Source: Bacteroidaceae bacterium (GTDB taxonomy: Bacteria > Bacteroidota > Bacteroidia > Bacteroidales > Bacteroidaceae). From it: a DNA stretch of 36,020 nt. Below are positions 7,360 through 27,942 of this stretch, piece after piece. Within the stretch, counting starts at the first letter, position 1; every line of letters begins with the position of its first letter. The position numbers and the translations under genes are program-made. The stretch is from the NCBI GenBank assembly GCA_017617335.1, contig JAFZWK010000034.1, positions 70,774-106,793 on the forward strand, written 5' to 3'. The notes beneath the pieces are model-generated. The model searched no databases. It saw only the letters and a list, made by a program, of their open reading frames with translations, and was not told the origin of the DNA.

Positions 7360-10300
7360 ATGAAAAAGTTCAGATTTCTACTGGCCACCCTGCTGGCCAT
7401 CGTTAGTGCCTCTTCGATGAAGGCCCAGAGTGACCCTGAGGCTTATGCCGTACTCTCCAATGGAGTATCTCTTACCTTCTATTACAACACAGAGAAGTCT
7501 TCGTATGCGAGTAACCCAGAAAATGAAATCTTCGATCTTCCTTGGGGACTGAGCATTCCTGGCTGGACTCAATATGATGGTAATGAGGATATTACTTACG
7601 TGGAGTTCGACGGTTCGTTTGCTAACTACCACCTACAGAGTACAGCCTATATGTTCTGGGGACTGGCAAATATTGAACAGATTCATAACCTCAAAAACCT
7701 GAACACAGATGAGGTTCGATATATGACACAAATGTTCTGTTCCTGTGAACGCCTCAATAGCCTCGACCTAAGTACGTTTGATACAAAAAATGTAACAAAT
7801 ATGGCAGGCATGTTCCAAGGTTGCGAATCTCTTTCTTCGCTCACTTTGGGAGACAAATTCGTCACATCAAACGTAACAGATATGCACGTAATGTTCAGTT
7901 GCTGTTCATCACTCAGGGCACTCGATCTGAGCAACTTTGACACAAAAAACGTAACAAACATGTCAGAGATGTTTCTTGATTGTACTGAACTTCGCTCGCT
8001 TGATGTCTCGAGCTTCAAGACAGACAATGTCACTAACATGTACCAGATGTTCTATAACTGCAATAACCTTGGTTCAATCGATGTGAGCAAATTCAATACG
8101 GAAAACGTAAAAAAGATGCATTATATGTTCTGTAAATGCTCCAGCCTTACCTCTATCGATCTGAGCAACTTCAATACAGACCAAGTTGAATCCATGATGC
8201 TGATGTTCCAGGAATGCTCATCACTCAAGGAACTCGACCTGCGAAATTTCAATATAGATCATGTGGGATCCTTAGAAAATATGTTCTATGGTTGCTCTTC
8301 TCTTGAAACCATCTATTGCGCAAAAGGAACTAATTGGAGTGGCGTTAACTTCACAACAGACATGTTCACGGGTTGCGTCAAGCTACAAGGAAGATGCGGG
8401 ACAAAGACATTCCCGTTTGATTCGAACTATACCGATGGGGCCTATGCCAAGGTCTATAAAGGGGGCACAGAGGGCGGTTACTTCTCTGAGATACATGAGC
8501 CATACGCCGTGCTTGACGGTAATACCCTCACATTCTATTACGACCCAAACAAGCCGACGGGTGCTTACGACATTCCTTGGAGTAATGACTCCCCTGGCTG
8601 GAGTAACAACTCCTCCATCCAGACCGTTACGTTCGATGCCTCCTTTGACCTATATCATGGTTTAACAAGCACAGAAAAAATGTTCAAAGAATTATCTCAT
8701 CTTCAGACCATCAACCACCTTGAATATCTACATACTGAGAACGTGACAAACATGAGGGCCATGTTCTCTGCCAATATATCACTCACTTCGATTGATGTAA
8801 GCAATTTTAATGTAAGTAAGGTGACAGATATGAGTGAGATGTTCGCTTGGTGCACGTCCCTCGAGACCATCTATTGTGCACCAGATGCTGATTGGAGTGG
8901 CGTTAACAATAGAGGCTACAACTACATGTTCAGCAACTGTCCTTACCTGACTGGAAAATGTGGAAACAAGACATTCTCATATAACTCTTCATATCCGAAC
9001 GGAGACTACGCCAGGGTTTGTACGGCTTCCCAGAATGGTTACTTCACCTCTATCGTTGAAACCTATGAGCCCTACGCCGTGCTTGATGGTAATACCCTGA
9101 CATTCTATTACGACAATAACAAGCCGACGGGTGCCTACGATATGAACTGGGGAATTGGCTTCCCTGGTTGGACAAATGATGGTAACGGAAACAACACCAT
9201 CACCACCGTTACTTTCGATGCATCGTTTGATGACTACACAGAGCTGAGCAATGCATACGCCTTTTTTAAAGGATTGAGTGCACTCACCACCATCAACCAT
9301 CTCGAGTATCTGCATACAGACAACGTTACAGACATGGCGCGTATGTTCCATGAATGTTCTTCTCTTACATCACTTGATTTGAGCACCTTCAATACAGGAA
9401 ACGTGACACAAATGATGGAGATGTTCTTTCGCTGCTCTAACCTCGAGACCATCTATTGCGCAGAAGGAACAGACTGGAGTACCAATAGTGCTAACAAGCG
9501 GGATATGTTCTCCAGTTGCTCCAAGCTGAAAGGAAAATGTGGAAACAAGACATTCTCATATAACTCTTCATATCAGGATGGCACCTACGCCAAAGTTTAC
9601 ACAGGAAATGATGAAGTGGGTGGCTACTTCACCAGCATCGTTGAAACCTATGTGCCCTACGCCGTGGTTTCTGACGAAGGTGCTACCCTGAGTTTCTATT
9701 ACGACAATCGGAAGTCAACGTATGAGAGCGACGAGAATGTAGAAGTGTACAATATTCCCTGGAAATGCGATGAGGAAAGAGATGTCCCTGGTTGGACGGA
9801 CTATACCAATGGCAACAACAAGATTACCACTGCTGTATTTGACGCTTCCTTTGCCAACTATCATGGACTAACAAGTACATATAACATGTTCGCAGGTTTG
9901 TTTAAGCTAAAAAACATTGAAAACCTCAACTACCTGAACACAGAGAATGTCACGAACATGAAATATATGTTCTGGTCTTGCGAGAAACTCATCACGCTCG
10001 ATGTGAGCAACTTCAATGTTAGTAATGTGACAGATATGGGTCAGATGTTCGCTTGTTGTAGCAGACTCAAGACTATCTATTGTGCACCAGATGCAAATTG
10101 GAGTAACGAACACTACAAATCCATGTTCACTGGTTGTGATCTTTTATCAGGAAAATGCAGGGGCATGGAATTCAAGTATAGTGCCACTTATGTTCATACT
10201 GAAGATGGCTATTATGCCAGGGTTTATACAGGAGATGATGAAGTGGGCGGCTACTTCACCTCGATCGCAGAAAGAAAGGGCGATGCCAACGGGGATGGTG

Positions 10301-10533
10301 TAGTTGATGCTGTTGACTTCAACATGATTGCCAACGAGATTCTTGGCTACCACCAAGACAATTTCGACAGAGTAGCAGCCGACATCAACGGTGACAACGA
10401 GATAGATGCAATCGACTTCAATATGATTGCCAACAAAATCCTCTATGGCAGTTTTTCTGGCGAGCAAGGAAGCAAGAAGAACAAGGGAAAGACGAAGGAA
10501 ACAGAAAGTGAGGACTCTAAGGAACCTATGTAA
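7360..10533 (+). CDS. BspA-type 26-residue-repeat surface protein with C-terminal dockerin (gene 1)
   Basis: A 1057-residue exported protein. The signal peptide MKKFRFLLATLLAIVSASS ends near MKAQ/SDP. Four large modules follow. Each begins with a [AP]YAV...LTFYYD segment, then a W..PGW turn and FDASF, then runs of the BspA/DUF285 repeat (NVTNMxxMFxxCxxLxxLDLSxFNT), and closes with a Cys-bearing LETIYC...GKCG...GGYFTSI end. Module starts are near 7441, 8500, 9067 and 9651. Modules 2 and 3 are close at DNA level, a sign of recent internal duplication. Residues 974-1057 are the dockerin cassette. BspA-type repeats are known in adhesins that bind host proteins or other bacteria; the ligand here is unknown. 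No enzyme domain and no T9SS C-terminus is visible, so surface retention may depend on the dockerin. Confidence 0.85.
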   Translation: MKKFRFLLATLLAIVSASSMKAQSDPEAYAVLSNGVSLTFYYNTEKSSYASNPENEIFDLPWGLSIPGWTQYDGNEDITYVEFDGSFANYHLQSTAYMFWGLANIEQIHNLKNLNTDEVRYMTQMFCSCERLNSLDLSTFDTKNVTNMAGMFQGCESLSSLTLGDKFVTSNVTDMHVMFSCCSSLRALDLSNFDTKNVTNMSEMFLDCTELRSLDVSSFKTDNVTNMYQMFYNCNNLGSIDVSKFNTENVKKMHYMFCKCSSLTSIDLSNFNTDQVESMMLMFQECSSLKELDLRNFNIDHVGSLENMFYGCSSLETIYCAKGTNWSGVNFTTDMFTGCVKLQGRCGTKTFPFDSNYTDGAYAKVYKGGTEGGYFSEIHEPYAVLDGNTLTFYYDPNKPTGAYDIPWSNDSPGWSNNSSIQTVTFDASFDLYHGLTSTEKMFKELSHLQTINHLEYLHTENVTNMRAMFSANISLTSIDVSNFNVSKVTDMSEMFAWCTSLETIYCAPDADWSGVNNRGYNYMFSNCPYLTGKCGNKTFSYNSSYPNGDYARVCTASQNGYFTSIVETYEPYAVLDGNTLTFYYDNNKPTGAYDMNWGIGFPGWTNDGNGNNTITTVTFDASFDDYTELSNAYAFFKGLSALTTINHLEYLHTDNVTDMARMFHECSSLTSLDLSTFNTGNVTQMMEMFFRCSNLETIYCAEGTDWSTNSANKRDMFSSCSKLKGKCGNKTFSYNSSYQDGTYAKVYTGNDEVGGYFTSIVETYVPYAVVSDEGATLSFYYDNRKSTYESDENVEVYNIPWKCDEERDVPGWTDYTNGNNKITTAVFDASFANYHGLTSTYNMFAGLFKLKNIENLNYLNTENVTNMKYMFWSCEKLITLDVSNFNVSNVTDMGQMFACCSRLKTIYCAPDANWSNEHYKSMFTGCDLLSGKCRGMEFKYSATYVHTEDGYYARVYTGDDEVGGYFTSIAERKGDANGDGVVDAVDFNMIANEILGYHQDNFDRVAADINGDNEIDAIDFNMIANKILYGSFSGEQGSKKNKGKTKETESEDSKEPM
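10279..10533 (+). repeat. Dockerin cassette copy 1
   Basis: An 84-codon cassette plus stop. Two calcium loops, DANGDGVVDAVD and DINGDNEIDAID, carry Asp/Asn/Asp/Asp/Asp at loop positions 1, 3, 5, 9 and 12. Each is followed by nearly the same helix, FNMIAN(E/K)IL. A tail of about 27 residues, Lys-rich then Glu/Asp-rich and ending in EPM, completes it. By eye it differs from copy 2 (16819-17073) at about 13 of 255 bases. The similarity continues past the stop (TAAGATAAGAATGTTTA). Confidence 0.85.
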
Positions 10534-10586
10534 GATAAGAATGTTTAATAATGAGACTCAGAAGTTAAGCGATTTAACCATTTAAA

Positions 10587-10615: not shown

Positions 10616-10650
10616 ACATGAAAGGAGAAAACATTTTTTAAAACGCGTTT

Positions 10651-10788: not shown

Positions 10789-10819
10789 ATGTTCAAAAAG
10801 AGAAAAAAAAGATAATCTT

Positions 10820-10849
10820 TTGCAATTCATCTAATTATTCTTATTTTTG
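10820..10849 (+). promoter_or_regulatory. Promoter of gene 2
   Basis: TTG (10820-10822), a 19-base spacer and TATTTTTG (10842-10849) match the Bacteroidetes consensus. The start codon lies 35 bases downstream. Confidence 0.75.
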
Positions 10850-10884: not shown

Positions 10885-13800
10885 ATGAAAAACCGAATCA
10901 CAAAGTTGTTGCTAATACTTTCAGCTCTCGTACTGACGGGCGCAGCAAAGTTATGGGCAGACGAGAACTATAAGGTATATGCCCGAATCAACAAAGCTTC
11001 TCTTACAATGGAGCTCCACTACGATGGGATGTTCGAGGCAAACATGACCAGTGATGAAGTTTCCTATTTGGCGGACAATGGTTATGGCACTCCCGGGTGG
11101 TGGAGTGATCCCGACATTCTTCCTATTGTCCAAAGTATCAAGAAAATAGAGTTCTATCCTGGGTTTGAAGACGCACCCATTACTAGCATGAAAGGTTGGT
11201 TCAAGAATATGTACTTTCTGACTACTTTCGTAACGCTCGACCACTTCCCCTCCAGTGTCACCGACATAAGCGAAATGTTCCAAAATTGCATAAGACTCAC
11301 CGAAGCCGATCTGACTGCTATGGACGTTTCCAACGTCACCAACATGAGCCGGTTGTTCTACGACTGCGAACAACTCCAGAGCGTCAACCTGAGCGGATGG
11401 AACACGGCCAAGCTTACCAACGTAAACCAAATGTTCGATGATTGTGATGTGCTCTCCACCATCAACCTAAGCAACTGGACCAACACCGTGCTCACGGACA
11501 TGAGTAGCATGTTCGCCAACTGCAAGGCACTCACCTCACTCAACCTGACGGGTTTCAAGACGGCCGCTGCCACCAACATGAGCAATATGTTTTCCGGCTG
11601 CAAAAACCTCACCAGTATAAGCTTGCTCAACTTCAATACCAGCAAAGTAACCAACATGAGCGGCATGTTCAATGGGTGCAGTAAACTGACGAGCATCACC
11701 TACGGCAGCAATTGGAACACCAGCAAGGTGACAGACATGAGCTACATGTTCGCCGACTGCACCTCTCTGGCCAGTCTCAACCTGAGCAGTTACAATCCTT
11801 CCAGCGCTACCAATATGAACCACATGTTCTCAGGTTGTACCAATCTACAAAGCATCACCTACGGCAGCAACTGGAATACCAGCAAGGTGACGGACATGAG
11901 CTACATGTTCGCCAACTGTAGCAAGCCGACGAGTCTCAACCTAACCAGCTGGAACACCTCCAGCGTCACTAATATGAGTTACTTGTTCACTGGTTGCAGC
12001 AATTTGTCGTCCCTCTCGTATGGCAGCAACTGGAACACCTGCAAAGTGACGGACATGAGCTACATGTTTGAGAACTGCTCCAACTTTACCACTATCAATC
12101 TGAACAGTTACAACACTTCCAGCGTCACCAATATGGCAGGCTTGTTTAAAGGTTGCAGCAAAATGACGGGATTCTCATATGGCAGCAACTGGAACACCAA
12201 CAACGTAACGGACATGAGTCTCATGTTCTCTGGATGCGAACAATTATCAAGCATCGACCTGGGCAGTACCAGCACCTCCAATGTCACGGACATGAACAAC
12301 ATGTTCAGTGGCTGTACATCACTCGCCACCATCAACAACCTCGGCAGCCGAAATACCAGTAACGTGACGAACATGAACTCCTTGTTCAACGGATGCTCAT
12401 CTCTCACCAATTTAGACATGGGCAGTTGGAACACCGCCAAAGTCACGGACATGAGCAGCATGTTCAACAGTTGTACCCACATCACCAGCCTCAACCTGAG
12501 CAGTTGGAACACCTCCAAAGTCACGGACATGAGCAGCATGTTCAATGGCTGTTCCAACCTCTCCAGCCTTAATCTGAGAGGTTGGAACACCGCCGCCGTT
12601 GTCGACATGGAAGGCATGTTCTATAACTGCACCAACCTCTCTACCCTCACTGGTATCAATGCATGGAATACCAGTTCACTTTCCGAAATGGAAGCCATGT
12701 TTCGAAACTGTTCCACCCTCAGAGACCTCGACCTGACAAGCTGGAACACCAGCAACGTGGTGATCATGGAAAACGTATTCAACGGCTGCTCCAACCTCGT
12801 CACCCTCACTTTGACTGGATGGGACACCTCCAACGTCATCGATATGGAGAATATTTTCAATGACTGCAGTCGTCTCACTACCATCAACGTGTCAAGCGGA
12901 TGGAACGTATCTAAAGTCTCTGTTTTTCACTCTCTGTTCGGCAACTGCACAGCTTTGAAGGGCGGCAAAGGCACAACATGGAACAGTTCTCACGTCGACA
13001 AGACCTATGCCCACATCGACGGAGGTTCGAGCAACCCAGGATACCTTACTGAGATATTTGCCGAATCCTATGCCGAATATACCCCAGGCAATACCACGCT
13101 GACGTTCTACTTTGATTTACTGCGCAGCGCGCGGACGGGCACCACATACAACATACCTGCGGGCAACGAAACTCCCCAATGGAATTCAAGCGTTACATCC
13201 CGTAACGTGACCAATGTGGTGTTCGATGCCTCGTTTGCCAACATCCATCCAACGAGTATGGCCCACTGGTTCGAGGGGATGTCTAAGCTCAGAAGCATCA
13301 CAGGTTTCGAAAACATTAATACAAGTGAGGTAACAGACATTGGAAATATGTTTTCTGGCTGCACGTCGCTATCAGAACTTGACCTGAGTGGTATCGACAT
13401 ACAGCATGTAGTTTCGACAACAAAACTATGTCAGAATTGCAGTAGCTTGGCATCCGTTACGTTACCGACCACCCTGTCCACCCTTGGGGCAAATGCTTTC
13501 CAAGGTTGTTCTTCCCTAACCACCATTGAAATTCCGCAACATGTCACCGAGATTCGAGATTATGCGTTCCAAGGCTGCTCTTCCTTAACCACCATTGAAA
13601 TTCCGCAGCATGTCACCGAAATTCGAGATTATGCTTTTGATGGTTGTTCAAAACTGAAGATTGTGAGGGTGAACTGGACAGAACCGATAGCGACTGTTGC
13701 CAATGCTTTCCCCAACCGTGCCAACCAGGTGCTCTTCGTTCCCGAAGGCACTAAAGCCGCCTATCAGAGTGCAGATGTCTGGAAGGATTTCCATTGGATT

Positions 13801-16800
13801 CTTGTCCCCAGCGACAACATTGACATCTATGCCATCTACAATACCACCACCAAAACACTTACCTTCTACAACGACGATCAGGTCTTCTCTCGCACAGGAA
13901 CTGGTTATTTCCTGAACACGGGCAATAACATACCTGAATGGAGCGTAAATAGTGGAGAAGTTACTAAAGTGGTGTTCGATGCCTCGTTTGCCAATGTACA
14001 ACCAACTTCCACAGCTCACTGGTTTGAAGGGATGAGTAACCTGATCACCATCTCCGGACTCGCCAACCTGAAGACGCAAAGTGTGACAACGATGGCCTCG
14101 ATGTTCAAGGGTTGCGGCAAGCTGACAAGTCTCGATCTGAGCGGTTTCAGTACGGTGAATGTGACCAGTTGGGAGAGCATGTTTGAAAATTGCAACAGCC
14201 TGACATCCTTAAATGTGAACGGCTTCACTACTGCAAGTGCTGCTACAGTCAACCTGAGCCGTATGTTCTATGGATGCAGTGCGCTGACCAGCCTCGATTT
14301 GACAAACTTCAATACATGGAAAGCATCAACGATGGCTGGCATGTTTCAAGGGGACTACAGACTGACGAATCTCGACCTGAGCGGTTTCAACACAGTGAAT
14401 GTGACAGATATGAGTTCGATGTTCCAAGGCTGCACCAATCTGACGACGGTGGACCTGAGCAATTTCAATACAGAGCATGTAACGACGATGGAAGGTATGT
14501 TCCAAGGCTGCCAACAGAAGCTGAAAGTTCTTGACTTGAGCAGTTTCAATACGGCAGCGGTGTCGAACATGAGTATGATGTTCAACGGTTGCAACAATAT
14601 AATTGCCATTGTTGTCAGCGATAATTGGAACACGACAAACGTGTCAAACTCGTCGAATATGTTTGCCAGTTGTAGCAACCTCGTGGGTGGAAACGGTACG
14701 AAGTATAACAGTGCTTTCACTGACAAAACACGTGCCTGCATTGATAAGCCAGGAACTTTGGGATACCTTACGGGTGATGACAGCGCTCCCTCGCCCTATG
14801 TTGTGCTTTCCTCTGACGGAACGACACTAACATTCTATTGTGACGGACTGCGTCTGACACATGCGGACGAGACTATATATTATCTGAACAGCGGTTCCAA
14901 TCAACCTGAATGGAATGTAAAGAATGGTGCAGTTAATACAGAGACAGCAAATGTGGAGACGGTCGTGTTCGACGAATCATTTGGCTTCGCCCGTCCGACA
15001 ACATGCTATCAATGGTTCTACCAGAGGAGTGCACTTCTGAACATCACGGGTATTGAAAACCTGAATACTTGTGAAGTAACAAACATGCAGGAAATGTTCC
15101 GTGAATGTACGGGATTGACAAACCTCGACCTGAGCACCTTCAATACGGCAAAGGTAACGAAGATGACAGATATGTTCCATGGTTGCACAGGCCTGCAGAC
15201 CCTTAACGTGAGTGGGTTTACGACGGCAAGCAACTCCTCACAGGTGGAACTAAGCGGCATGTTCGATGGATGTAGCGCCCTCACTAACCTCAACCTAATG
15301 GACTTCGATACTCAGTATGTGGTGTGGATGTCCTTTATGTTCCGCGGTTGTTCCTCGCTGACATTCCTTAACCTGAGCAGTTTCAATACGGCAAAGGTAA
15401 AGTATATGAACGGCATGTTCTATGATTGCACCAAACTGAAGATCATTGTTGTTGGGGATTTGTGGAGCACGGGGGCAGTACTGAATGGTAACACTATGTT
15501 CTATAACTGCAGCAACGTCGTTGGCGAGAAGGGTACGACATTTGATTCCAATCATGTGGACAAACTGTATGCTCGCATCGACGGTGGTATATCCAGCCCT
15601 GGTTACCTCACAGAAAAATTGACCTATGCCCAACTCTCTACAGACGGAACAACGATGACATTCTACTGTGATAACAAAAAAGAATCGCGACCAGGTAAAT
15701 CATTCGACCTGAATACGGAATCCACTAACCCTGAGTGGTATGCCAATCGTACAAGTGTTACGAATGTGGCGTTCGATATCTCGTTTGCCAGTGTACTGCC
15801 TACGACCACTTATCGCTGGTTCTACGGAATGAAGAATCTGACTAACATTGAGGGTATCGGATATCTCCATACGGACAATGTCACGACAATGAAGGAGATG
15901 TTCAGCGGTTGTAATGCTCTGACCGACCTCGATGTAAGCAGCTTCAATACCAGCAACGTGACCAATATGAACTATATGTTCTATGGTTGCAAACTACTCA
16001 CGGAACTGGAAGTCGCAGGTTTTGAGACGGGAAATGTGACAGACATGAGCGGCATATTCAGCGGTTGTAATGTTCTGGAAGACCTCGATGTGAGTGGTTT
16101 CAATACGGGCAATGTGACAAACATGGCTTCTATGTTCAGCGGTTGCAATGTTCTGGAAGACCTCGATGTGAGTGGCTTCAATACGGACAATGTGACAAAC
16201 ATGAGTTACATGTTCAGTGGTTGCAAATTACTCACAGAGTTGGATGTCGCAGATTTTGAGACGGGAAATGTGACAAACATGAACAGTATGTTCCTCAACT
16301 GCCAAGCATTGACCAACCTCAACGTTAGCAACTTCAATACCGACAACGTGACGAACATGGCAAACATGTTCAGTTATTGCTATGGTTTGACGAGCCTCGA
16401 CCTGACCAATTTCAACACAGGAAATGTGACAACAATGGAGAAAATGTTTTATTATTCCAATAGTTTGACAAACCTCGACCTGAGCAGCTTCAACACCAGC
16501 AATGTGACGACCATGGCAAGCATGTTTGAGCAATGTGGCGGACTGAAGGAACTCGACCTGAGTGGCTTTGAGACTCCGAAGGTGAAGAATTTCCAATACA
16601 CCTTCAACGGATGTAGCAGTCTGGTTACAATATATGCTGGAAACTGGAGCAATGCCGCATTAGAATATGACTCCTACATGTTCAGCGGTTGTTCAAAAAT
16701 CAAGGGAGGCAGTGGCACAACCTATGTTAACAAACCTGTTGGATCATTTATGTATGCTCACATCGACGGGGGCTCTGACAATCCGGGTTACTTTACGGAG

Positions 16801-17110: not shown

Positions 17111-20100
17111 ATGCAAAAGTTCAGATTTCTACTGGCCGCCCTGCTGGCCATCGTTGGTGTCTCCTCGATGAAGGCACAGAGTGACCCTGAGCCATACGCC
17201 GTGCTTGACGGCACTGCGCTGACATTCTACTATGATAATCAGAAAGCTTCCGTTGATCCTGGAAAAACAGTGTATGATTTCCCTACTCCCATTTCCTGGA
17301 TTCCTGGTTGGGCATCTAACTCCACCATTACGATAGCCACGTTCGATGAATCATTTGATAATTACACAGGATTGAAGGATGCTTATCGCTTCTTTGGTGA
17401 TCTGACGGCACTCGAAGTTATCAACCATCTCGAGTACCTGCACACAGACAATGTAACCTACATGGGCCATATGTTTGAAAATTGTTCTTCCCTTACCTCG
17501 CTCAACCTGAGTTTGTTCAATACGGAGAAAGTGACCAACATGCAGGACATGTTCTCTGGTTGCTCTAAGCTCGAAACGATCTATACTGCTGACGATGCAG
17601 ATTGGCATGAAGTTAGTCCTACAGCTGGCATGTTCTCTGGTTGTACCAAGCTGTCAGGCAAATGTGCAGGAAATCCATTCACGTTTAAGAGTGACAAAAC
17701 TGATGGCACCTACGCCAAAGTTTACAAAGGTGGCACAGAGGGTGGCTACTTCACCTCCATCATGGAAAGACAGGCATACGCCGTGCTTTCTGACGACGGT
17801 AAAACCCTGACATTCTACTACGATGCGGACAAACCGACAGGTGCTTACGACATTACATGGGCTGACAACGATCTACCAGACTGGTCAAAACAAGAAGAAA
17901 ACCAAACCACTATTAAGACCGCTGTCTTCGACAAGTCGTTTGGCGAATATTACGGATTGACGAGTACATCCAGAATGTTCGCTGATCTGGAAGCTCTCAA
18001 AACTATCAGTAACCTAAAGTATCTGAATACCGAGGGCGTGACAAACATGAGCATGATGTTCAAGAACTGTAAGAAACTCACCTCGCTCGACCTGAGTAAT
18101 TTCAAGGTGACCAGCGGGACAGATATGTCTGGCATGTTCGCTTATTGCAGTACCCTTCAAACTATTTATTGCCCAGAAGAAACAGATTGGAGTGGCTTTA
18201 GCAATAATGAAGGCATGTTCAATCAATGCATCAACCTGTCAGGAAAATGCGGAGGAAGGGAACCTTTCGTATGTGATGGTGTGAATAACATCAATGGCAC
18301 CTACGCCAAAGTTTGTACTGCTTCTCAGGGGGGCTATTTCACCTCCATCGCAGAAAGACAGGCATACGCCGTGCTTGATGTCGATGGTGAAACACTGACA
18401 TTCTACTACGACGCCAATAAGCCGACTCCATCAGAGGGAATAGAAGTCTATGACATTCCTTGGGAGGACTATCCTCTTTGGGGATCTAGTTCGAATGCTT
18501 CAAAAGTCACGAACGCATCGTTCGATGTATCTTTTGACGGATATTGCAATTTAGCGAGCACAATGGGCATGTTCTATGGTTTGTCAAGTCTTACTGCTAT
18601 CAATGGCCTCGAGTACTTCGATACTCAGAAAGTGACCAATATGACGGGTATGTTCCAGAACTGCTCTTCACTCACCTCGCTTGACCTGAGTACATTCAAT
18701 ACAGAAAACACCACATTCATGGACTATATGTTCTCTAGATGTGGATCGCTTAATTCGCTCACTCTGGGAGACAACTTCAAGACGTCAAAAGTGAAAGACA
18801 TGTCTTACATGTTCTACTATTGCAAGGTCCTCGAGACGCTCGACCTAACCAACTTCTATACAGCGAACGTGACTGACATGAACAATATGTTTAATAGGTG
18901 TTCTGCCCTCGAGACAATCAACTGGACCAGTAACTTCGACACTCAAAATGTGACTAACATGGAGTCTATGTTCCAAGACTGTACATCACTTGAATCACTT
19001 GACCTGAGCAACTTCAACACAAGTAGAGCAACAAACATGTTCAGGATGTTTTCAAGCTGCTCTACCCTTCAGACGCTCGACTTGCCCCGTTTCTATACAG
19101 TGAATGTGACTAACATGAACTATATGTTTTATGGTTGTTCTGCACTCCAGACGATCAACTGGACCAGCAACTTCGACACTCAAAATGTGACCAACATGGC
19201 CAACATGTTTGACGGTTGTGTAGTTCTCGCTTCACTCGATTTAAGCAACATTGATACAAAAAATGCGACAGACATGTCCTTCATGTTTCAAAGATGCCTT
19301 GCCCTCACCTCGCTCGATGTGGGCAACTTCAATACAGAGAACGTGACAAACATAGCGGGTATGTTCCAAGGTTGTTCCTCCCTCACCTCGCTCGATGTGA
19401 GCAACTTCAATACAGAGAACGTGACAAACATGGAGTATATGTTCTATAACTGCTCTTTGCTTAAGACCATCTACTGCAACGAAGACTGGCAAAAGGAAGG
19501 ACTAACATCTACCAACATGTTCGCTGGCTGCACCAGTCTCAAGGGAGGCAATGGCACGCCATACGATGACTCCAATATAGATGTCTCTAATGCCCGCCCT
19601 GACACTCGACTCAATCCTGGCTACTTCACCCTAAAGACTACCTATGGACTACAGATAGGTGGCATCGCTGTGACTCCTCTTAACGCAGGGGATTTATCAT
19701 CTACAAATTTCCCAGCATTGAAAAGAGGCACAGTATCCTATGATATCAATACCAATACGTTGAGAATAAGGAATGTCACAATAGAGTCATTAGGTACTAC
19801 AATGGACTTGTATCCTATTCATTTCACAAAGCCTGGAACACTTATTCTGGAAGGGGAAAATACCCTTACAACAGAACATGATCCTGCTATACAAATAGAC
19901 GCAGATGTGACCATCAGGGGAGATGGCAGCCTCACGGCAACAAGCTCCTGGGAGTGTGGAATCTTCATCAATTCAGCAAAGCTGACTATCCAATCATGTG
20001 CTGTTACGGCTCAAAGTTCTCATAATAGTGGTATCGCTGGTTTTAGGGCAGATGGTTCTCTTGTCATCGATGGAGCGATAGTTAAGGCTTCAAGTGGAAA

Positions 20101-21502
20101 TAACGGTGGATCCATCTTCGATTTGGAGTCATTCACTCTGACAAATGCCACCCTTACTTCGCCTGAAGGAGCTGTGTGGAACGACTTTAAGCATGCCGTC
20201 TGCAATGAAGCAGGTGAGGAAGCTACGGTTATTCGCAGCGAAGTAATCATTACCCCCACTGTAAGTCCTTATGCCGTGCTTGAAGGTACTGAACTTAAGT
20301 TCTACTACAACGCGAATAAACCGACTGATGCCTATGACTTTGAAAGGAATATGTTCGGCAATTTTGGCTGGACAAGCTCAGCTCCTAATTCCAATATCAA
20401 GACGGTTTCCTTCGATGAATCCTTCGCTGGATACCATGATTTGACGAATGCAAGCAGCATGTTCAAGAATATGAGTGGACTTACTGCTATCAACGAACTC
20501 CAGAATTTCGACACTCAGAATGTGACAAACATGGAGAGTATGTTCGAGAACTGCCAAGCTCTTACTTCGATTGAACTGAACATCTTCAATACCGACAATG
20601 TGGAAAATATGCAGGCGATGTTCCAGAACTGTCAGGCTCTTACTTCGCTTGACCTGAGCAACTTCAATACCGACAATGTTGGAAATATGCAGGGTATGTT
20701 CTCAAGTTGCTCTTCTCTTACCTCGCTTGACCTGAGCAAGTTCAATACTTCCAATGTGACAAACATGCAAGCCATGTTCTCAAGTTGCCAAGCTCTTACT
20801 TCGCTCGACCTGAGTAATTTCAACACCTCCAATGTGGAAAACATGCAGGGTGTATTCTATTGGTGTCAGGCTCTCAAGAACCTTAAACTGAGCAGCAACT
20901 TCGTCACAACCAGCGCAAAATATGATATGTCGAACATGTTCAATCACTGCAAAGCTCTCACCTCTCTCGACTTGAGTAGTTTTGTTATATCATCCGATGT
21001 GACAGACATGCATGGAATGTTCTATGGTTGCTCTAACCTTGAAACCATCTTCTGTGTTGATGACGCTAATTGGTATAACAGCAATATTGATCAAAGAAAC
21101 ATGTTCGATGGTTGCGTCAAGCTAAAAGGAAAATGCGGAGGCAGAGAACCCTTTGCATGTGATGGCAGCACCAATATTGATGGAGACTACGCCAGAGTTT
21201 GTACGCCTACTCAAGACGGCTACTTCACCTCTATCACAGAAAGAAAGGGCGATGCCAATGGTGATGGTGTCGTCGATGCAGTTGACTTCAACATGATTGC
21301 CAACGAGATTCTTGGCTACTACCAAGACAATTTCGACAGAGCAGCTGCCGACATCAACGGTGACAACGAGGTAGATGCAATCGACTTCAACATGATTGCC
21401 AACAAAATCCTCTATGGCAGTTTTTCTGGCGAACAAGGAAGCAAGAAGAACAAAGGAAAGAGGAAGGAAACAGAAAGTGAGGACTCTAAGGAACCTATGT
21501 AA
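17111..21502 (+). CDS. BspA-type repeat surface protein with beta-helix insert and dockerin (gene 3)
   Basis: A 1463-residue exported protein. Its signal region is almost that of gene 1: the first 27 codons differ at six bases, and AAAAATAATACATT just before the start is shared. YAVL...LTFYYD module headers occur near 17197, 17776, 18364 and 20268, each followed by BspA/DUF285 repeats and a Cys-bearing GKCG...GYFTSI end. Between about residues 844 and 1050 the repeats are interrupted by a different domain (YGLQIGGIAVTPLN...GTVSYDINTNTLRIRNVTI...LILEGENTL) that reads as a right-handed parallel beta-helix, of a kind often linked to carbohydrate binding. The dockerin cassette closes the protein (residues 1380-1463). 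It lies 37 bases after gene 2 without a visible promoter, so it is probably the second gene of that operon. Confidence 0.83.
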   Translation: MQKFRFLLAALLAIVGVSSMKAQSDPEPYAVLDGTALTFYYDNQKASVDPGKTVYDFPTPISWIPGWASNSTITIATFDESFDNYTGLKDAYRFFGDLTALEVINHLEYLHTDNVTYMGHMFENCSSLTSLNLSLFNTEKVTNMQDMFSGCSKLETIYTADDADWHEVSPTAGMFSGCTKLSGKCAGNPFTFKSDKTDGTYAKVYKGGTEGGYFTSIMERQAYAVLSDDGKTLTFYYDADKPTGAYDITWADNDLPDWSKQEENQTTIKTAVFDKSFGEYYGLTSTSRMFADLEALKTISNLKYLNTEGVTNMSMMFKNCKKLTSLDLSNFKVTSGTDMSGMFAYCSTLQTIYCPEETDWSGFSNNEGMFNQCINLSGKCGGREPFVCDGVNNINGTYAKVCTASQGGYFTSIAERQAYAVLDVDGETLTFYYDANKPTPSEGIEVYDIPWEDYPLWGSSSNASKVTNASFDVSFDGYCNLASTMGMFYGLSSLTAINGLEYFDTQKVTNMTGMFQNCSSLTSLDLSTFNTENTTFMDYMFSRCGSLNSLTLGDNFKTSKVKDMSYMFYYCKVLETLDLTNFYTANVTDMNNMFNRCSALETINWTSNFDTQNVTNMESMFQDCTSLESLDLSNFNTSRATNMFRMFSSCSTLQTLDLPRFYTVNVTNMNYMFYGCSALQTINWTSNFDTQNVTNMANMFDGCVVLASLDLSNIDTKNATDMSFMFQRCLALTSLDVGNFNTENVTNIAGMFQGCSSLTSLDVSNFNTENVTNMEYMFYNCSLLKTIYCNEDWQKEGLTSTNMFAGCTSLKGGNGTPYDDSNIDVSNARPDTRLNPGYFTLKTTYGLQIGGIAVTPLNAGDLSSTNFPALKRGTVSYDINTNTLRIRNVTIESLGTTMDLYPIHFTKPGTLILEGENTLTTEHDPAIQIDADVTIRGDGSLTATSSWECGIFINSAKLTIQSCAVTAQSSHNSGIAGFRADGSLVIDGAIVKASSGNNGGSIFDLESFTLTNATLTSPEGAVWNDFKHAVCNEAGEEATVIRSEVIITPTVSPYAVLEGTELKFYYNANKPTDAYDFERNMFGNFGWTSSAPNSNIKTVSFDESFAGYHDLTNASSMFKNMSGLTAINELQNFDTQNVTNMESMFENCQALTSIELNIFNTDNVENMQAMFQNCQALTSLDLSNFNTDNVGNMQGMFSSCSSLTSLDLSKFNTSNVTNMQAMFSSCQALTSLDLSNFNTSNVENMQGVFYWCQALKNLKLSSNFVTTSAKYDMSNMFNHCKALTSLDLSSFVISSDVTDMHGMFYGCSNLETIFCVDDANWYNSNIDQRNMFDGCVKLKGKCGGREPFACDGSTNIDGDYARVCTPTQDGYFTSITERKGDANGDGVVDAVDFNMIANEILGYYQDNFDRAAADINGDNEVDAIDFNMIANKILYGSFSGEQGSKKNKGKRKETESEDSKEPM
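21248..21502 (+). repeat. Dockerin cassette copy 3
   Basis: The same 84-codon cassette, with loops DANGDGVVDAVD and DINGDNEVDAID. It has GYYQDNF in the linker where the other copies have GYHQDNF, and KGKRKE in the tail. Confidence 0.85.
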
Positions 21503-21830: not shown

Positions 21831-21861
21831 TTGTTTATCAACGATAGTATTTGTAAATTTG
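21831..21861 (+). promoter_or_regulatory. Promoter of gene 4 and the cohesin-like gene
   Basis: TTG (21831-21833), a 20-base spacer and TAAATTTG (21854-21861). Transcription should start near 21867, which rules out a TTG start at 21859 and makes ATG 21874 unlikely. It favours ATG 21901. Confidence 0.75.
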
Positions 21862-21900
21862 TTGCGATTATATATGCAAAAAATACATATGATACAACGC

Positions 21901-24900
21901 ATGAAACATCTTAAACTCTTTTTTGCGCTTTTCGTCACGTGTATGATGGGAGCAAATGCGTGGGCTACTGATTTGAACATTGACGAGTACATGTCCACGT
22001 TCAATGGCCAGTACAGCTACAACGTGCTGATGACAACACCTGAGAGTGACTGGCATTGGACAACGGCGACAACTCCTAATTCAGATAGCTCTGAATATCC
22101 TTCCTGGGGCGGTAGCAGTTATCTTTATCCCTATGCTGTGACCAGCAAAGAATCTGTGGAAGAAGGTTCAGTTCGCATCACTCTTGATTGCTCGTTTAAA
22201 CGTTATTCGAGCAGTTATTATAAATGTCGTGTAGAAGTATTTGTCGGTGACAAACTTCTATATTGCCAGTATGCTAAAGATAATCGCTATTACTATAATT
22301 ATGCAGATATCGAGACTACTGATTACAATACAGTTGACCAAATGCTTACGTTTGTATCATTTGGAAAGGTAAGTGGAGAGGTCTCCGTTAGAGTCAATCG
22401 TTATTCTGTCAACGGTGCTTATACTGGAACTTTTTCTCTTAGGTCCATTAAGGTTGAGCGGACGAACCTTGTGCCTCCCACCGTCGTGAGTGACCAGCCC
22501 AATCCTGCTGAGGTTGACTATACCCTTACTGTTACTAATGATGATCCTGATGCCGATCTTTATTGGACATCGAATCAGAGCAACCCTTATAATGACGGAT
22601 ATACCCCTAATGCCATTGAAAGCGGTTTCCAACAAACCTATGACGATGATTATTCTCACTCATTTTATGCATATACCAATAGAGAAGGTTTCTATAGCGA
22701 ATTTGTGGGTGGAACCTACCAGAAGAAGGTTGTGCGCAATATCCAGTACTCGCGTGAAGGAGGTTACTTCCTGTCTAATACTCTGCCGTCGTCTGTGGCT
22801 ATCACTTGTAACAACCTGAAAGAAGGTGACAAACTCTTCTATCAGAAATTATTCAAGGATACTGAATGGAAAGAAATCACGTCGGGGACAACTATTTATA
22901 TCAATAATGACGACATTTATTCTGATTATAATAATCCTTCAGCTGTAAGACTCTCGGCCAAAGTGGTAAATGCCTCTGGAATGGAGAGCGAAGAGAAACG
23001 TTTATATTTGTCGGTTGTTAGTGTTCCTGATGTTAGCTTCAATGGTTTCTGTAACTCTAATAATAAGTACGAATGGGAGTTTGATGGGCCACAGGAAATG
23101 ACTCTTGGCTTTTCCTCATACCCAGTTGAAGGCTTACGCTTACAATACAGCTACGACGGCGAAAACAATAATTGGCAAAATTATAATCCAAATAATAAAC
23201 CTGTTATCAGTTCCACGAAAAGAGTTTGGGGAAGGTTCGTGTACGACAGCAGTGGTGATGTTGTCAAGAATGCTAATTTCAATTACATTATCAATCCCGC
23301 TCATGTGACGGGTTCCTGCTTGTATAATTATTATACGGATATGCCCTTTGACGTCACTATTGGCTGTTCGTCGTTTGTCAACACATACGTGGCTTATACG
23401 ACAGATGATAGCGATCCAAGGACGAGTTCGACTGCCGTGGAGGTAAGAGGTGAAGAACAGACGGCGCATATCGCAGAGTCATGTACACTGAAGATGGCAG
23501 TCAACCAAAGTGGCAGTTGGGGCAATGTAGTTGAAAGGACGATGAGCATCCAGCTGAATCAGCCAATGTTCAGCTTCAAACAGAATCAATTCGTTCCTGA
23601 TTATAATGACTCAAGAAGCTTGGGTGCAGATTCCTGGCTGCGGAACAAGACACCGCTTTCTTGCAAACAGTACCCGTATTACAACGTTTACTACGATAAT
23701 GGAAATGTGGGCTCATGGTCTATGAGCTCTACTAATTACGGCTTTTTCGAAGTGAAAGACGGTCTTGGCGAATGTACGTTTGACGTTATGGGAGATGTGG
23801 ATACAGACGGTGACAATAGCTCTGATACCCGTTATGAAACCCACATGGTAGTAACCTCTTTGGATCAGTGGAATGTTCATGACAGCATTGACTTCAACCG
23901 TACAGACCAGACTCTCTTCACGACCTACGAGGCTAATGGCTGCACATGGCAGACCGATGCTAACGGCAAGAGGTTCCTGCTGATTCCACAAGGGGCGACA
24001 ATTACGGTTGCAGCTCCTGAAGGTATAAACCTCGTTGGGGTGTTCCTTAATGGAGGAAACAACGAGGCAAACATCAATCACTTGCGACAGGATGTGGAAG
24101 GTTGCTATGTCAGTCAAGTGCCCGTCAGCGATTGGTATTGCAAATGGATAGGCCGCAGTCAAAGCGTTACCTTTGTGGCTGATGCTGAGTCACGTGTCTA
24201 TGGCATTGAGAGTTTCTACTATCTTACTCCTTCTGAGATTTGGATTAATTACTATAACAATGAAGTTGTCGTAGGACGTACAATCAAGCCTGATTATGTA
24301 GACAATCCTTATAATTTGCCTATTAGCTACTCGTCAAGCGATACGAGCATAGCTACTGTAGATGCAGAGACAGGCGTCGTTACGGGTGTTGCAGTTGGTA
24401 TATGCACTATCACCGCTGAATTTGCAGGCGATGGCGAATATGCTCCTTTCAAGCAATATTATGAGATTCAGGTAATACCAGATGTCTCAACCGTAAAGTT
24501 CATGGGACAAGAGCTCAAGAGCGTGACCGAGACGATGACAGGCGAGATCGGTAATGGCACGTGGACCTTCTCATGGGAAGAAGAGGAGGAACAGGAATTT
24601 TCTGGTGGTGGTGAAGCCTGGGCTCCCAGGGCCCGCTACGCTCCACGTCGCAATGTTGGCAGTGGAAATATCATTCAGGTTCCTGTACTCACCTTGAATA
24701 ATGTGAACCTACAATATAATGGCGAAGGCCCTGTCATCGAGGTGAATGATTATAGTGAGTTCCGCATCCGCCTTATTGGTGAGAACTCCATTACAATGAC
24801 AAACAACTGTCCACCCATTGCTATCGGAACATTAAACGGACAGCCAAGCCGCGGTGCTTCCGTGCTTATCACCAATGAAGAAGGAGTGTGGGAAACTAAC

Positions 24901-26670
24901 CAAGGTGGTGGCGGTTATGAACCCCTTTCGGCGCCAATACGTCGTGTAAAACGTAAAACTAATGGCACTGGCAGTGTAGCCAAACTTACTCTTGCCGGAG
25001 GTCCTATGGGTATCTATGTCTGCAACGGAAATCTTTTCATTGCCGATTGCGAAGTAGATGCAAGCGGTACTGATTATGGTGTATTCTTCACCGACTATGA
25101 AGAAGAAAGTGGTGGTGAGGAATTTAATGCTCCTCAGGTAAAGGAGCCTAAGAAAGTTCTGCCTACTTATAATTGGTCATCCCAATTTGAAATTAACGAA
25201 AATACCAAGTTGAAACTTCAAGGTGACCAAGCTGCCATATATGGACAGCTCTCTAATAGAAACTGGCAATTCAACTATGATGCTGTCGAGCTGAAAGATT
25301 GCGATATTGAAGATGGATATTTCGAATACTATTGGGATAACAACGATAAACAGATTTATTCCTATATGCAGTATGATAGTGATCAAGAAACATACATCTT
25401 TGCCAAATTACTTGAGTTCGCCAACGACTATTTCACAGCTAAGACTGTTGAAGGCGTAAAAATGAAGTTCAAGGTTCTCGACGAAGATACCAAGACGTGT
25501 CAGGTGTATGGGACCTATGATATGGATAATTATTATGGAAATCCTGCTATCGAGCAATACTACTCGGGCTCTGTCACTATCCCTTCAAAGGCGATGGGGT
25601 ATCAGGTGGTAGGAATTAGTGATTATGCTTTTACCGCATGTTCTCTTTCCTCAATTACAATTCCTGCCAGCGTCACAAGCATTGGAGAAGTGGCATTTAT
25701 AAACTGTAACAACCTTGCTTCCGTGACTTTGCTCGATCCTCCTACAGAAGATTCCATAGCATTACCAATCCAAGAGAATGGTGATAATTCATATCATGTA
25801 TTTGATGACATCAAAGAAAATGCCGTTCTCTACGTGCCTGCAAATGCTGTTGAAGCTTACGAGGACTCAGATTGGGCAGAATTCTTCACTATTAAGCCTT
25901 TCGGCGCTGAAGGCTTTGTCTTTAGCGTAGATACTCCGCAAGATGATGAGAATATGGTTAGAATGACTTTCATGGTAACCCGTGCAGAAGAAAATAATTA
26001 TACTGTACAGACCTATGGTTATTGGGCAGACGGCTATGCTGAAACGGCCATCCCCAGAAATTATCAAGGTTCCCTCACCATTCCTGAAAAGGTAATTTAT
26101 GATGGTGTTGAATATACAGTTACAGCAATTGGTGAAGAGTCATTTGATGCTGACAACTCACCGTCTTTGCAACTCACTAAAATCACGATTCCAAGTACTG
26201 TTACGCAAATCGGAGATTATGCTTTCTGTTACTGCTATCCAAATGCTGTCTATACCTATGCTGAGAATCCACCTACATTAGCAGAATGGAATCCTTTCTC
26301 TTCTGATTCAGGTACCCTCTATGTTCCTATAGGACATGTTGAGGACTATGAAGAAAGTGACTGGGCTCAGTATTTCAACAACATCGTTGAGATGGGTAGC
26401 GGTGAAGTAGTTCAAGGCGATGCCAGCGGTGATGGTATAATCGATGCCGTTGACTTTAACATGATTGCCAACGAGATTCTTGGCTACCACCAAGACAATT
26501 TCAACAGGGCAGCTGCCGACATCAACGGTGACAACGAGGTAGATGCAATCGACTTCAACATGATTGCCAACAAAATCCTCTATGGTAATTTTGATGGTGT
26601 ACAAGGAAATAAGATGAACAAGAAAAAGACTGAAATAACTGAAAGTGAGGATTCTAAGGAACCTATGTAA
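21901..26670 (+). CDS. Large multi-domain surface protein with Ig-like, beta-helix, LRR_5 and dockerin modules (gene 4)
   Basis: A 1589-residue exported protein. ATG 21901 is chosen because it opens directly with a signal peptide (MKHLKLFFALFVTCMMGANAWA/T) and lies about 35 bases after the predicted transcription start. In-frame ATGs at 21874 and 21889 would add non-signal residues. The N-terminal part holds beta-rich modules, including stretches like chitobiase C-terminal Ig domains (DLYWTSNQSNPYNDG...; TTDDSDPRTSSTAV). A Big_2 Ig domain spans about 777-860 (SYSSSDTSIATVDAETGVVTG). A beta-helix-like domain lies at about 868-1113, related in pattern to the insert of gene 3 but with a Glu/Gly-rich low-complexity stretch. 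Two LRR_5 segments follow (about 1238-1335 and 1408-1500), then the dockerin cassette (1506-1589). Unlike genes 1-3 it has no DUF285 array. It is probably a surface binding protein. The cohesin-like gene follows 39 bases later. Confidence 0.8.
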   Translation: MKHLKLFFALFVTCMMGANAWATDLNIDEYMSTFNGQYSYNVLMTTPESDWHWTTATTPNSDSSEYPSWGGSSYLYPYAVTSKESVEEGSVRITLDCSFKRYSSSYYKCRVEVFVGDKLLYCQYAKDNRYYYNYADIETTDYNTVDQMLTFVSFGKVSGEVSVRVNRYSVNGAYTGTFSLRSIKVERTNLVPPTVVSDQPNPAEVDYTLTVTNDDPDADLYWTSNQSNPYNDGYTPNAIESGFQQTYDDDYSHSFYAYTNREGFYSEFVGGTYQKKVVRNIQYSREGGYFLSNTLPSSVAITCNNLKEGDKLFYQKLFKDTEWKEITSGTTIYINNDDIYSDYNNPSAVRLSAKVVNASGMESEEKRLYLSVVSVPDVSFNGFCNSNNKYEWEFDGPQEMTLGFSSYPVEGLRLQYSYDGENNNWQNYNPNNKPVISSTKRVWGRFVYDSSGDVVKNANFNYIINPAHVTGSCLYNYYTDMPFDVTIGCSSFVNTYVAYTTDDSDPRTSSTAVEVRGEEQTAHIAESCTLKMAVNQSGSWGNVVERTMSIQLNQPMFSFKQNQFVPDYNDSRSLGADSWLRNKTPLSCKQYPYYNVYYDNGNVGSWSMSSTNYGFFEVKDGLGECTFDVMGDVDTDGDNSSDTRYETHMVVTSLDQWNVHDSIDFNRTDQTLFTTYEANGCTWQTDANGKRFLLIPQGATITVAAPEGINLVGVFLNGGNNEANINHLRQDVEGCYVSQVPVSDWYCKWIGRSQSVTFVADAESRVYGIESFYYLTPSEIWINYYNNEVVVGRTIKPDYVDNPYNLPISYSSSDTSIATVDAETGVVTGVAVGICTITAEFAGDGEYAPFKQYYEIQVIPDVSTVKFMGQELKSVTETMTGEIGNGTWTFSWEEEEEQEFSGGGEAWAPRARYAPRRNVGSGNIIQVPVLTLNNVNLQYNGEGPVIEVNDYSEFRIRLIGENSITMTNNCPPIAIGTLNGQPSRGASVLITNEEGVWETNQGGGGYEPLSAPIRRVKRKTNGTGSVAKLTLAGGPMGIYVCNGNLFIADCEVDASGTDYGVFFTDYEEESGGEEFNAPQVKEPKKVLPTYNWSSQFEINENTKLKLQGDQAAIYGQLSNRNWQFNYDAVELKDCDIEDGYFEYYWDNNDKQIYSYMQYDSDQETYIFAKLLEFANDYFTAKTVEGVKMKFKVLDEDTKTCQVYGTYDMDNYYGNPAIEQYYSGSVTIPSKAMGYQVVGISDYAFTACSLSSITIPASVTSIGEVAFINCNNLASVTLLDPPTEDSIALPIQENGDNSYHVFDDIKENAVLYVPANAVEAYEDSDWAEFFTIKPFGAEGFVFSVDTPQDDENMVRMTFMVTRAEENNYTVQTYGYWADGYAETAIPRNYQGSLTIPEKVIYDGVEYTVTAIGEESFDADNSPSLQLTKITIPSTVTQIGDYAFCYCYPNAVYTYAENPPTLAEWNPFSSDSGTLYVPIGHVEDYEESDWAQYFNNIVEMGSGEVVQGDASGDGIIDAVDFNMIANEILGYHQDNFNRAAADINGDNEVDAIDFNMIANKILYGNFDGVQGNKMNKKKTEITESEDSKEPM
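26416..26670 (+). repeat. Dockerin cassette copy 4
   Basis: The most divergent of the four copies: loop 1 DASGDGIIDAVD (Ser for Asn at position 3, still a possible calcium ligand), loop 2 DINGDNEVDAID, and NFDGVQGNKMNKKKTEIT in the tail. The helix sequences FNMIANEIL and FNMIANKIL and the final ESEDSKEPM are unchanged. Confidence 0.85.
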
Positions 26671-26709
26671 GATAAAAAATACAATTTGTTTAATATAATA
26701 ATTATTATT

Positions 26710-27942
26710 ATGAAAAAGAAGTTTCTATTGCCCTTATTGGCTGTGATGATAGCCTTTACCACGGGCAGAGCAGAAGAAAGTGATTTATCGCAATTCACGG
26801 ATGCCGTCTATGTGCAGTCAACGGAAGTTGCAAGAGGCACACAGCAAACGTTGTCTATCCAAATGAAGAACTCCTTCTCTGTTCAGACAATTCAATTTGA
26901 TCTTTACCTTCCCGCCGGACTAACCGTTGTGAACGAGGATGGACTGATGACGGAAAGCAAAGAGAGAATTAGTAAATTCAACTATTTCGAAAGTTCTCTG
27001 CAGGGCGATGGCGCAATACGTCTACTTGCTCAGGCCACAACCACAAATTTTGCTGTTGGTGAGGGTGAAATAGCAAAAGTAAAAGTAAGTATTAACGCAG
27101 AAACAGCCCCCGGTGATTATCCAATTAGTGTAAAGAATATCAAACTGGTTTCCAAAGATAATGTTGAGAAACACGTCGAGGAAGTGACTACTAAGATCAC
27201 CGTCACAAGCTGTTTAGTATTGGACGAAACTTCCACAACCGCACCAGGATCTGCCACAGGAGTCAATGTCTGCGTGCTTCGCACGATCAATGCCAACGAG
27301 TGGAGCACTATTTGCTTACCATTCGCTATGAGCGAGGCACAAATACAGACAGCCTTCGGTGAAGATGTCGATGTTGAGTTGGCAGACTTTACTGGTTACG
27401 ATCTCGAGTATGATGATGAAGACAATGTAGTGGGAATCAATGTCTTATTCAACGACGCACATGCCATAGAAGCAAATCATCCCTATATTATCAAGGTGTC
27501 TCAGCCTGTGACACAGATTACAGTCGATGGCGTTGACGTAGAGCCTACTGATTATCCAGGAGTGTGTTATGGATCTGAATATGGTAGGCCCAAAGTATAT
27601 CATCCTAAGGATTTCATAGGGACATACGTAGCTGACTTCAACTTCTTCGCTGATGCTCAAAGCGGGCATGCGATCTTCCTTAACAGCAATAAGTTTTGGT
27701 ATGCCACAGCGAGCACCAAACACATGAAAGCTTTCCGTGCTTATTTCGATTTCGACGACGTGCTGCCAGAGGCAGAGAATTCCGTCAAGATGTATTTCAA
27801 TAAAGATGGAGAGTTGACTCGCATTAATGAGTTGATGCCAGAGACATCCGATGATGCCATTTATGACCTGGCAGGCCGCAAAGTAGAGAAGGCAGAGAAA
27901 GGTATTTATATTGTTAACGGAAAAAAGGTGCTGGTTAAGTGA
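26710..27942 (+). CDS. Cohesin-like surface protein with T9SS-like C-terminus
   Basis: A 410-residue exported protein starting at ATG 26710, which opens the signal peptide MKKKFLLPLLAVMIAFTTGRA. Residues about 32-166 follow the cohesin pattern: YVQSTEVARGTQQTLSIQMKN, then VQTIQFDLYLPAGLTVV, then GAIRLLAQAT, GEGEIAKVKVSI and a closing GDYPISVKNIKLV strand. Residues about 170-375 form a second beta-rich domain (NEWSTICLPFAMSEAQIQTAFG...) often seen in Bacteroidales surface proteins. The last about 28 residues (IYDLAGRKV...KGIYIVNGKKVLVK) resemble a type A T9SS sorting domain. It follows gene 4 after 39 bases, so it is probably cotranscribed. Inferred role: surface anchor for the four dockerin proteins. 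The cohesin call is by pattern and could be wrong; cohesin-like folds also occur in proteins that do not bind dockerins. Confidence 0.62.
   Translation: MKKKFLLPLLAVMIAFTTGRAEESDLSQFTDAVYVQSTEVARGTQQTLSIQMKNSFSVQTIQFDLYLPAGLTVVNEDGLMTESKERISKFNYFESSLQGDGAIRLLAQATTTNFAVGEGEIAKVKVSINAETAPGDYPISVKNIKLVSKDNVEKHVEEVTTKITVTSCLVLDETSTTAPGSATGVNVCVLRTINANEWSTICLPFAMSEAQIQTAFGEDVDVELADFTGYDLEYDDEDNVVGINVLFNDAHAIEANHPYIIKVSQPVTQITVDGVDVEPTDYPGVCYGSEYGRPKVYHPKDFIGTYVADFNFFADAQSGHAIFLNSNKFWYATASTKHMKAFRAYFDFDDVLPEAENSVKMYFNKDGELTRINELMPETSDDAIYDLAGRKVEKAEKGIYIVNGKKVLVK

Follow-up and report, generated by a model that had tools for sequence, protein, structure and literature searches.

Why should four very large exported proteins without a sorting-like tail end, one after another, in nearly the same dockerin, and why should the next gene encode a small protein with a cohesin-like module and such a tail? 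The question is raised by a 36,020-nucleotide stretch of DNA (hereafter the window) from a Bacteroidaceae bacterium, a Prevotella-like draft genome of 2.37 Mb in 73 contigs, 62% complete (GCA_017617335.1, contig JAFZWK010000034.1, positions 70,774 to 106,793). Cohesin and dockerin form the best known plug-and-socket among proteins, studied almost wholly in cellulose degradation. We propose that here they likely make a non-cellulosomal, locus-specific lock that attaches the tail-less giants P0001 to P0004 to a tail-bearing carrier, P0005. The giants and their dockerins are as follows.

7360..10533, plus strand: P0001, 1057 residues, exported PARCEL-repeat protein with a C-terminal dockerin and without a sorting-like tail
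10276..10443, plus strand: type I dockerin of P0001, residues 973-1028, 43.7 bits; charged tail ending EPM to 10530
10885..17073, plus strand: P0002, 2062 residues, PARCEL and LRR_5, dockerin at the C-terminus
16816..16983, plus strand: type I dockerin of P0002, residues 1978-2033, 43.3 bits; tail to 17070
17111..21502, plus strand: P0003, 1463 residues, PARCEL and LRR_5, a weak Cthe_2159-like stretch, C-terminal dockerin
21245..21412, plus strand: type I dockerin of P0003, residues 1379-1434, 43.7 bits; tail to 21499
21859..26670, plus strand: P0004, 1603 residues as listed (the true start is probably ATG 21901), LRR_5 and Big_2, C-terminal dockerin
26413..26580, plus strand: type I dockerin of P0004, residues about 1519-1574, 38.2 bits; tail to 26667

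These four neighbouring open reading frames, on one strand, each terminate in a match to the Pfam family Dockerin_1 (PF00404) of 38.2-43.7 bits, the cut-off being 22.9 (E-values 1.6e-9 to 3.1e-11). Read by eye, both calcium loops of the dockerin are complete (DANGDGVVDAVD and DINGDNEVDAID in P0001-P0003), and a charged tail with a final EPM follows each of the four. A search of solved structures with the dockerin family profile gave 4fl4_A as its top match (E 5e-13). The earlier description of the locus made from its letters alone, the sequence-only reading, was therefore right that four adjacent proteins end in a complete two-loop type I dockerin. The dockerin of P0004 is 88-90% identical to those of P0001-P0003, yet the body of P0004 is largely unrelated to them: it does not match P0001 or P0003, and its matches to P0002 are short and LRR-level.

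What, then, is the protein encoded next to them? Its parts are the following.

26710..27942, plus strand: P0005, 410 residues from ATG 26710 (open reading frame 26686-27942), cohesin, CLPF domain and short tail
26806..27204, plus strand: cohesin module of P0005, near the cut-off of Pfam Cohesin (PF00963), placed by a family profile against solved cohesins
27250..27774, plus strand: CLPF domain, a name coined here from NEWSTICLPF, without a Pfam or NCBIfam match
27856..27939, plus strand: short sorting-like tail, AIYDLAGRKVEKAEKGIYIVNGKKVLVK, which recurs across the genome

Comparison at the level of the family supports the assignment of the P0005 module to the cohesins. A profile of the cohesin modules of 42 carriers found 5n5p_A as its best solved structure (E 3.1e-7), and all eight solved chains at E < 0.005 are named as cellulosomal scaffoldins or cell-wall anchoring proteins. 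Against Pfam Cohesin, with its cut-off of 24.1, the N-terminal part of P0005 alone reaches 25.3 bits, just above, and the whole protein remains just below. Searched as a single sequence, P0005 found no cohesin among the solved structures (best E 0.56, unrelated), and its module is not among the matches above cut-off in a whole-genome Cohesin search. P0005 contains one cohesin-like module and therefore looks like a one-to-one anchor or carrier, not the scaffold of the sequence-only reading; the multi-cohesin proteins of the genome, C1_725 and C61_1929, both lie outside the window. The tail of P0005 has at least 58 copies in the genome and by eye resembles a shortened tail of the type IX secretion system (T9SS), and the source genome encodes SprA (2645 bits); together, these two features suggest a T9SS link for the carrier. 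In an order sample of 119 genomes all 15 tail-positive ones have SprA, but so do 112 of the 119, and this comparison is therefore uninformative, since the presence of SprA does not discriminate. In the genus search with carriers, the CLPF domain also turned up towards the C-terminus of many large proteins.

We then asked whether carrier and dockerin are neighbours in other genomes. Six window-type dockerins used as a query of the genus matched 28 of 150 genomes at E 1e-8 with their types mixed, and we therefore based all counts on the carrier instead. A search of the genus with three carriers found matches in 107 of 139 genomes (E 1e-15), many of them confined to the CLPF domain. Among the matches listed, we took 48 loci outside the own genome, chosen only by similarity to P0005, in which the match spans the cohesin part (start at or before model position 61) and reaches the tail. 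Forty-six were scorable: L138 lies at a contig edge, and in L136 an open reading frame on the opposite strand hid the carrier, although its layout, outside all counts, agrees with a dockerin-carrier pair. A dockerin was called free when within 40 residues of the protein C-terminus, and the carrier had to follow directly. By this rule 36 of the 46 carriers stand directly downstream of a free-dockerin gene, with gaps of -17 to 180 bp, against 2 of 131 other genes of at least 250 residues in the same regions (0 of 6 among the tail-bearing ones); both of these control positives have a free dockerin themselves and precede the carrier in the row of genes. In RUG13587 (L063), a draft genome of a rumen Prevotellaceae, the carrier comes after two LRR_5 proteins that end in cohesin and dockerin and have no tail. 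Beyond the genus, the carrier was found in 27 of 201 sampled genomes of the family, own genus included, from 7 of 30 genera (E 1e-30), and in 2 of the 119 genomes of the order sample, own genome included. We kept 29 carriers from other genera as a held-out set under the same fixed rule, and 26 are paired, 24 by the rule and two on inspection (L178, L182) that it missed because of an over-extended start. In the three others the gap is 202 bp, 2 bp too far (L157), or the dockerin lies 65 (L176) or 181 (L181) residues from the protein end. Dockerin and cohesin as linked genes are thus supported within the genus and for six further genera.

The two modules also diverge together. Across 42 pairs (36 of the 48 genus loci with the window, L024, L063 and L142-L144, the latter three fetched for other reasons), the distances between dockerins correlate with those between the downstream cohesins (r 0.656, 0 of 5000 permutations), against r 0.002 for the CLPF domain of the same carriers. 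The correlation is 0.56 after controlling for gene body and CLPF, and for 27 representatives with less than 60% cohesin identity it is 0.476 (0/5000), against -0.226 with CLPF. In the held-out set, for the 24 pairs from the fixed rule, r is 0.722 (0/5000 permutations) and the partial value 0.653, but the sharp contrast between cohesin and CLPF is only partly repeated there. Linkage and joint divergence support the dockerin-cohesin part of the sequence-only reading.

How specific is the match? Where a locus has further free dockerins, all seven of them show 62-90% identity to the proximal one; the 13 internal dockerins of the same regions reach 24-38%, the mean across different loci being 39%. 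When loci of the same genome are compared, eight of nine pairs are unlike (dockerins 23-40%, cohesins 20-36% identical); the ninth, in the source genome, shares one type (dockerins 79%, cohesins 64% identical). Because other loci and species have other dockerin-cohesin types, each locus would form its own lock and key. A natural exchange is seen in C1_725. Over 620-630 residues its body shares 73-74% identity with proteins of L106, L110 and L118, each of which is followed by a carrier. Its dockerin shares 37-38% with theirs, but at the DNA level it matches the window dockerins at 90-91%. The dockerin of C1_725 has thus been exchanged for the window type, as a need to match a resident cohesin would predict. 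C1_725 itself has no adjacent carrier, in a genome whose incompleteness may keep further carriers out of view. The free dockerins are moreover internally symmetric: over 13 compared positions, the identity of the two repeats is 61.5% within 40 proximal ones, repeats of different dockerins reaching 22.5% (0/2000), and in 20 held-out ones the values are 67% and 31%; 24 other dockerins, a mixed set that includes fusions, agree at 39.4%. In the P0004 dockerin the repeats are 69% identical at the 13 compared positions. Finally, dockerin, linker and cohesin are fused in one protein in six natural cases, with CLPF in L098 and L100 and without it in L147-L150.

According to these results, the scenario we propose is as follows. 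Four exported giants without a sorting-like tail end in two-fold symmetric type I dockerins, which would be of one specificity type, and P0005 would supply the matching cohesin together with a tail resembling a shortened T9SS sorting signal. The dockerins would plug, in a calcium-dependent manner, into this cohesin, so that the carrier would retain the giants, most probably on the cell surface, with each locus a separate lock-and-key type. Binding of dockerin and cohesin within types is, on sequence grounds, very probable; anchoring of the giants at the surface is predicted with somewhat less assurance, and it is doubtful, though conceivable, that the carrier also takes them through the outer membrane. 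Dependence on calcium, surface location, the route and direction of export, and any part in adhesion are likewise what we infer. As a tentative extension, this may be a split surface cargo in which the dockerin replaced the sorting tail, the giants being exported or fixed via a small tail-bearing cohesin protein. Each locus would then keep its lock and key, dockerins could move between proteins and re-address them, as in C1_725, and genomes of the family would hold mutually independent, enzyme-free surface assemblies.

Several results weigh against this scenario. Pfam Cohesin scores the whole of P0005 at 22.7 bits (E 1.2e-4), just below its cut-off, and finds just 15 of the 42 carrier modules at E <= 1; the earlier call of a cohesin-like next gene is thus upheld by the family profile, and the Pfam model straddles its threshold. 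On the dockerin side, the L102 dockerin was missed by Pfam at E <= 1e-3. TIGR04183, the model for the T9SS type A sorting domain, gave no match to P0005 and matched 1 of 41 tails (E 0.04), so that the T9SS-like C-terminus claimed for P0005 fails with this hidden Markov model (HMM), despite the likeness by eye. Ten of the 46 genus carriers have no free-dockerin gene directly upstream: two are the fusions L098 and L100, in two the neighbour's dockerin is internal (L112, L140) and six have no dockerin neighbour (L111, L113, L116, L122, L124, L126). In the held-out set (n=24) the dockerin correlates with CLPF at 0.53, and at 0.372 given cohesin, and cohesin with CLPF at 0.41. The gene bodies also correlate with the cohesins (r 0.52, and 0.34 given dockerin). 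To this must be added the cohesins found in cis and the closeness of the two genes, on which the rival explanations turn.

In 29 of the 42 free-dockerin proteins a cis cohesin stands just before the dockerin, and at these loci it tracks the dockerin better than the carrier does (r 0.78), the partial correlation of the downstream cohesin falling to 0.18 (70/5000). The dockerin might therefore pair mainly with its cis cohesin or with copies of its own protein, as an intramolecular clasp or a head-to-tail chain, the carrier being merely a linked gene. We consider this quite unlikely, since a Pfam scan found no Cohesin match in P0001-P0004 and since, where a cis cohesin is missing (13 loci), dockerin and carrier cohesin correlate at r 0.802. 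Moreover, cis and trans cohesins are 36% identical within a locus and 23% between loci, which fits recognition of one and the same dockerin by both. It could also be that dockerin and cohesin are passive structural modules swapped as one block of DNA, and that the correlation reflects the block. No more than a few hundred bases separate the dockerin from the downstream cohesin in the adjoining gene, so that one-block exchange could make part of the correlation, and the correlation of bodies with cohesins points the same way. However, the dockerin of P0001 is of the same type at a distance of 16 kb, in all seven cases the distal free dockerins resemble the proximal one and internal ones do not, and C1_725, on another contig, carries a window-type dockerin on a foreign body. 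Linkage as the whole explanation thus appears improbable.

Alternatively, the C-terminal dockerin with its charged tail may stand in for the usual tail as a signal for export or sorting, with the cohesin protein as its chaperone or receptor and not as a stable anchor. The window dockerin proteins indeed lack the tail that occurs at 58 or more other places in the genome, and [DEN]P[QMED] closes 18 of the 23 free dockerins with at least nine residues after the dockerin in the first set and 12 of 19 in the held-out set, with a background of 2 in 102. Examples are window positions 10522-10530 and 26659-26667 and loci L095, L097 and L101, the linkers before the motif being variable; the motif was not found at the joints of the dockerin-cohesin fusions. 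We still regard such a signal as unlikely, as many free dockerins stop right after the dockerin and the motif occurs in just 18 of 42. A cellulosome-like complex with enzymes, of which the window would hold the non-catalytic subunits, seems very improbable. It is favoured by subtilisin-like proteins with internal dockerins beside C1_725 and its relatives, and by a CotH kinase domain in 2 of 16 sampled free-dockerin proteins of relatives; yet those internal dockerins are of another type, and neither the window four nor the 16 sampled proteins contain a glycoside hydrolase. Membership of a cellulosome proper was rejected because there are no enzymes: P0005 has its single cohesin-like module, P0001-P0004 show no enzyme domain above curated cut-offs in Pfam and NCBIfam scans, and no glycoside hydrolase was found in the 16 relatives at E 1e-3. 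The locus-specific lock between giants and carrier is thus the reading that we retain.

What the lock would hold can be described from the domains. In P0001-P0003 the main repeats are DUF285/TIGR02167 PARCEL repeats, in 14, 45 and 19 stretches respectively (TIGR02167 316-950 bits, cut-off 30); P0004 does not reach that cut-off. LRR_5 is above cut-off in P0002-P0004 and Big_2 in P0004, and the beta-helix family Cthe_2159 matches P0003 weakly (22.4 bits, below the cut-off of 25.8). Of the BspA, LRR_5, Ig-like and beta-helix modules named by the sequence-only reading, LRR_5 and Big_2 are thus confirmed, the beta-helix is not above cut-off and the main repeats are PARCEL instead. A scan of 16 of the 42 linked dockerin proteins at E 1e-3 gave LRR_5, Big_2, InlB-type B repeats, HYDIN/ASH Ig-like domains and DUF7619, with Dockerin_1 in 15 of the 16. 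Two have a CotH kinase domain with a ricin-type lectin match (L105:5844-8855 and L135:1999-4914), and the claim that no enzyme domain is present, true of the window four, does not extend to all tail-less dockerin proteins.

Genome-wide, 13 dockerins and 4 cohesins are above cut-offs, the P0005 cohesin not counted, and two dockerin classes are apparent. Class A comprises six near-identical C-terminal dockerins without a sorting-like tail, those of the window four, C1_725 and C61_1929. Class B dockerins are internal, about 160-180 residues upstream of a sorting-like tail. C1_725 has three cohesin-like modules by alignment and two by HMM, and C61_1929 has two and is followed by a second carrier, C61_401, 57% identical to P0005. 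At L024:11618-17976 (minus strand) two LRR_5 proteins each chain an internal dockerin, a cohesin-like stretch and a sorting-like tail; these internal dockerins are of the second class, asymmetric and of another type. Adjoining C1_725, at L023:9628-13581 (minus strand), is a protein that looks subtilisin-like by eye and combines a sorting-like tail with an asymmetric internal dockerin, and similar proteins stand beside the C1_725 relatives in L106, L110, L112 and L118. The carriers of L111, L116, L124 and L126, none with a dockerin gene next to it, have similar tails (IDGKKVAIK), and the fetched regions of L116 and L126 contain a free dockerin ending VTIADVTALVN..ILGK. A match to a Bacteroidota promoter pattern at 10819-10849, just 5' of P0002, is one of three in the whole window (0.60 expected), a signal too weak to use.

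If the scenario is true, surface proteins of Prevotella-like bacteria would carry many natural, unlike cohesin-dockerin pairs, so that dockerins in this group would be read differently. For engineering, they would supply separate pairs made by nature, and they would raise a question open to direct test: how proteins that lack a sorting signal get to the surface. Peer et al. reportedly surveyed, in 2009, cohesin and dockerin modules outside cellulosomes. Titles and abstract openings of the open-access literature searched describe no such pairs in Prevotella, and according to PMC5831590 Bacteroidetes-affiliated genomes lack cellulosomal parts. PARCEL/DUF285 surface proteins with repeats as in P0001-P0003 are described in PMC2996958, whose main text mentions neither dockerin nor cohesin, Prevotella or Bacteroid-.

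With the type I cohesin-dockerin pair of the cellulosome (clostridia, Ruminococcus), the system shares a two-calcium-loop Dockerin_1 with two-fold symmetry and a cohesin of the same profile. In contrast, here there is one cohesin per carrier, several dockerin types occur per genome, and glycoside hydrolases are absent from the window and from the 16 relatives. The likeness to T9SS type A cargo consists of SprA in the genome and a shortened look-alike tail, although TIGR04183 does not recognise it. The two-protein assembly of C. perfringens is, according to PMC5429695, likewise a non-cellulosomal pair joining exported proteins. That pair has a single binding mode, whereas the dockerins here are internally symmetric, and internal symmetry is tied in the same paper to dual binding. 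Among published cases the complex of Ca. Stygibacter (Cloacimonadota) comes nearest, and it too is inferred from sequence only (PMC8542988). There too a cohesin protein has a conserved C-terminal domain for attachment to its own surface and the dockerins are on exported partners. However, its scaffoldin is a 3,755-residue protein with tandem cohesins and carbohydrate-binding modules, and its dockerins sit on GH18, GH57 and peptidases. The carrier here is small, has one cohesin and would serve LRR, Ig-like and PARCEL proteins.

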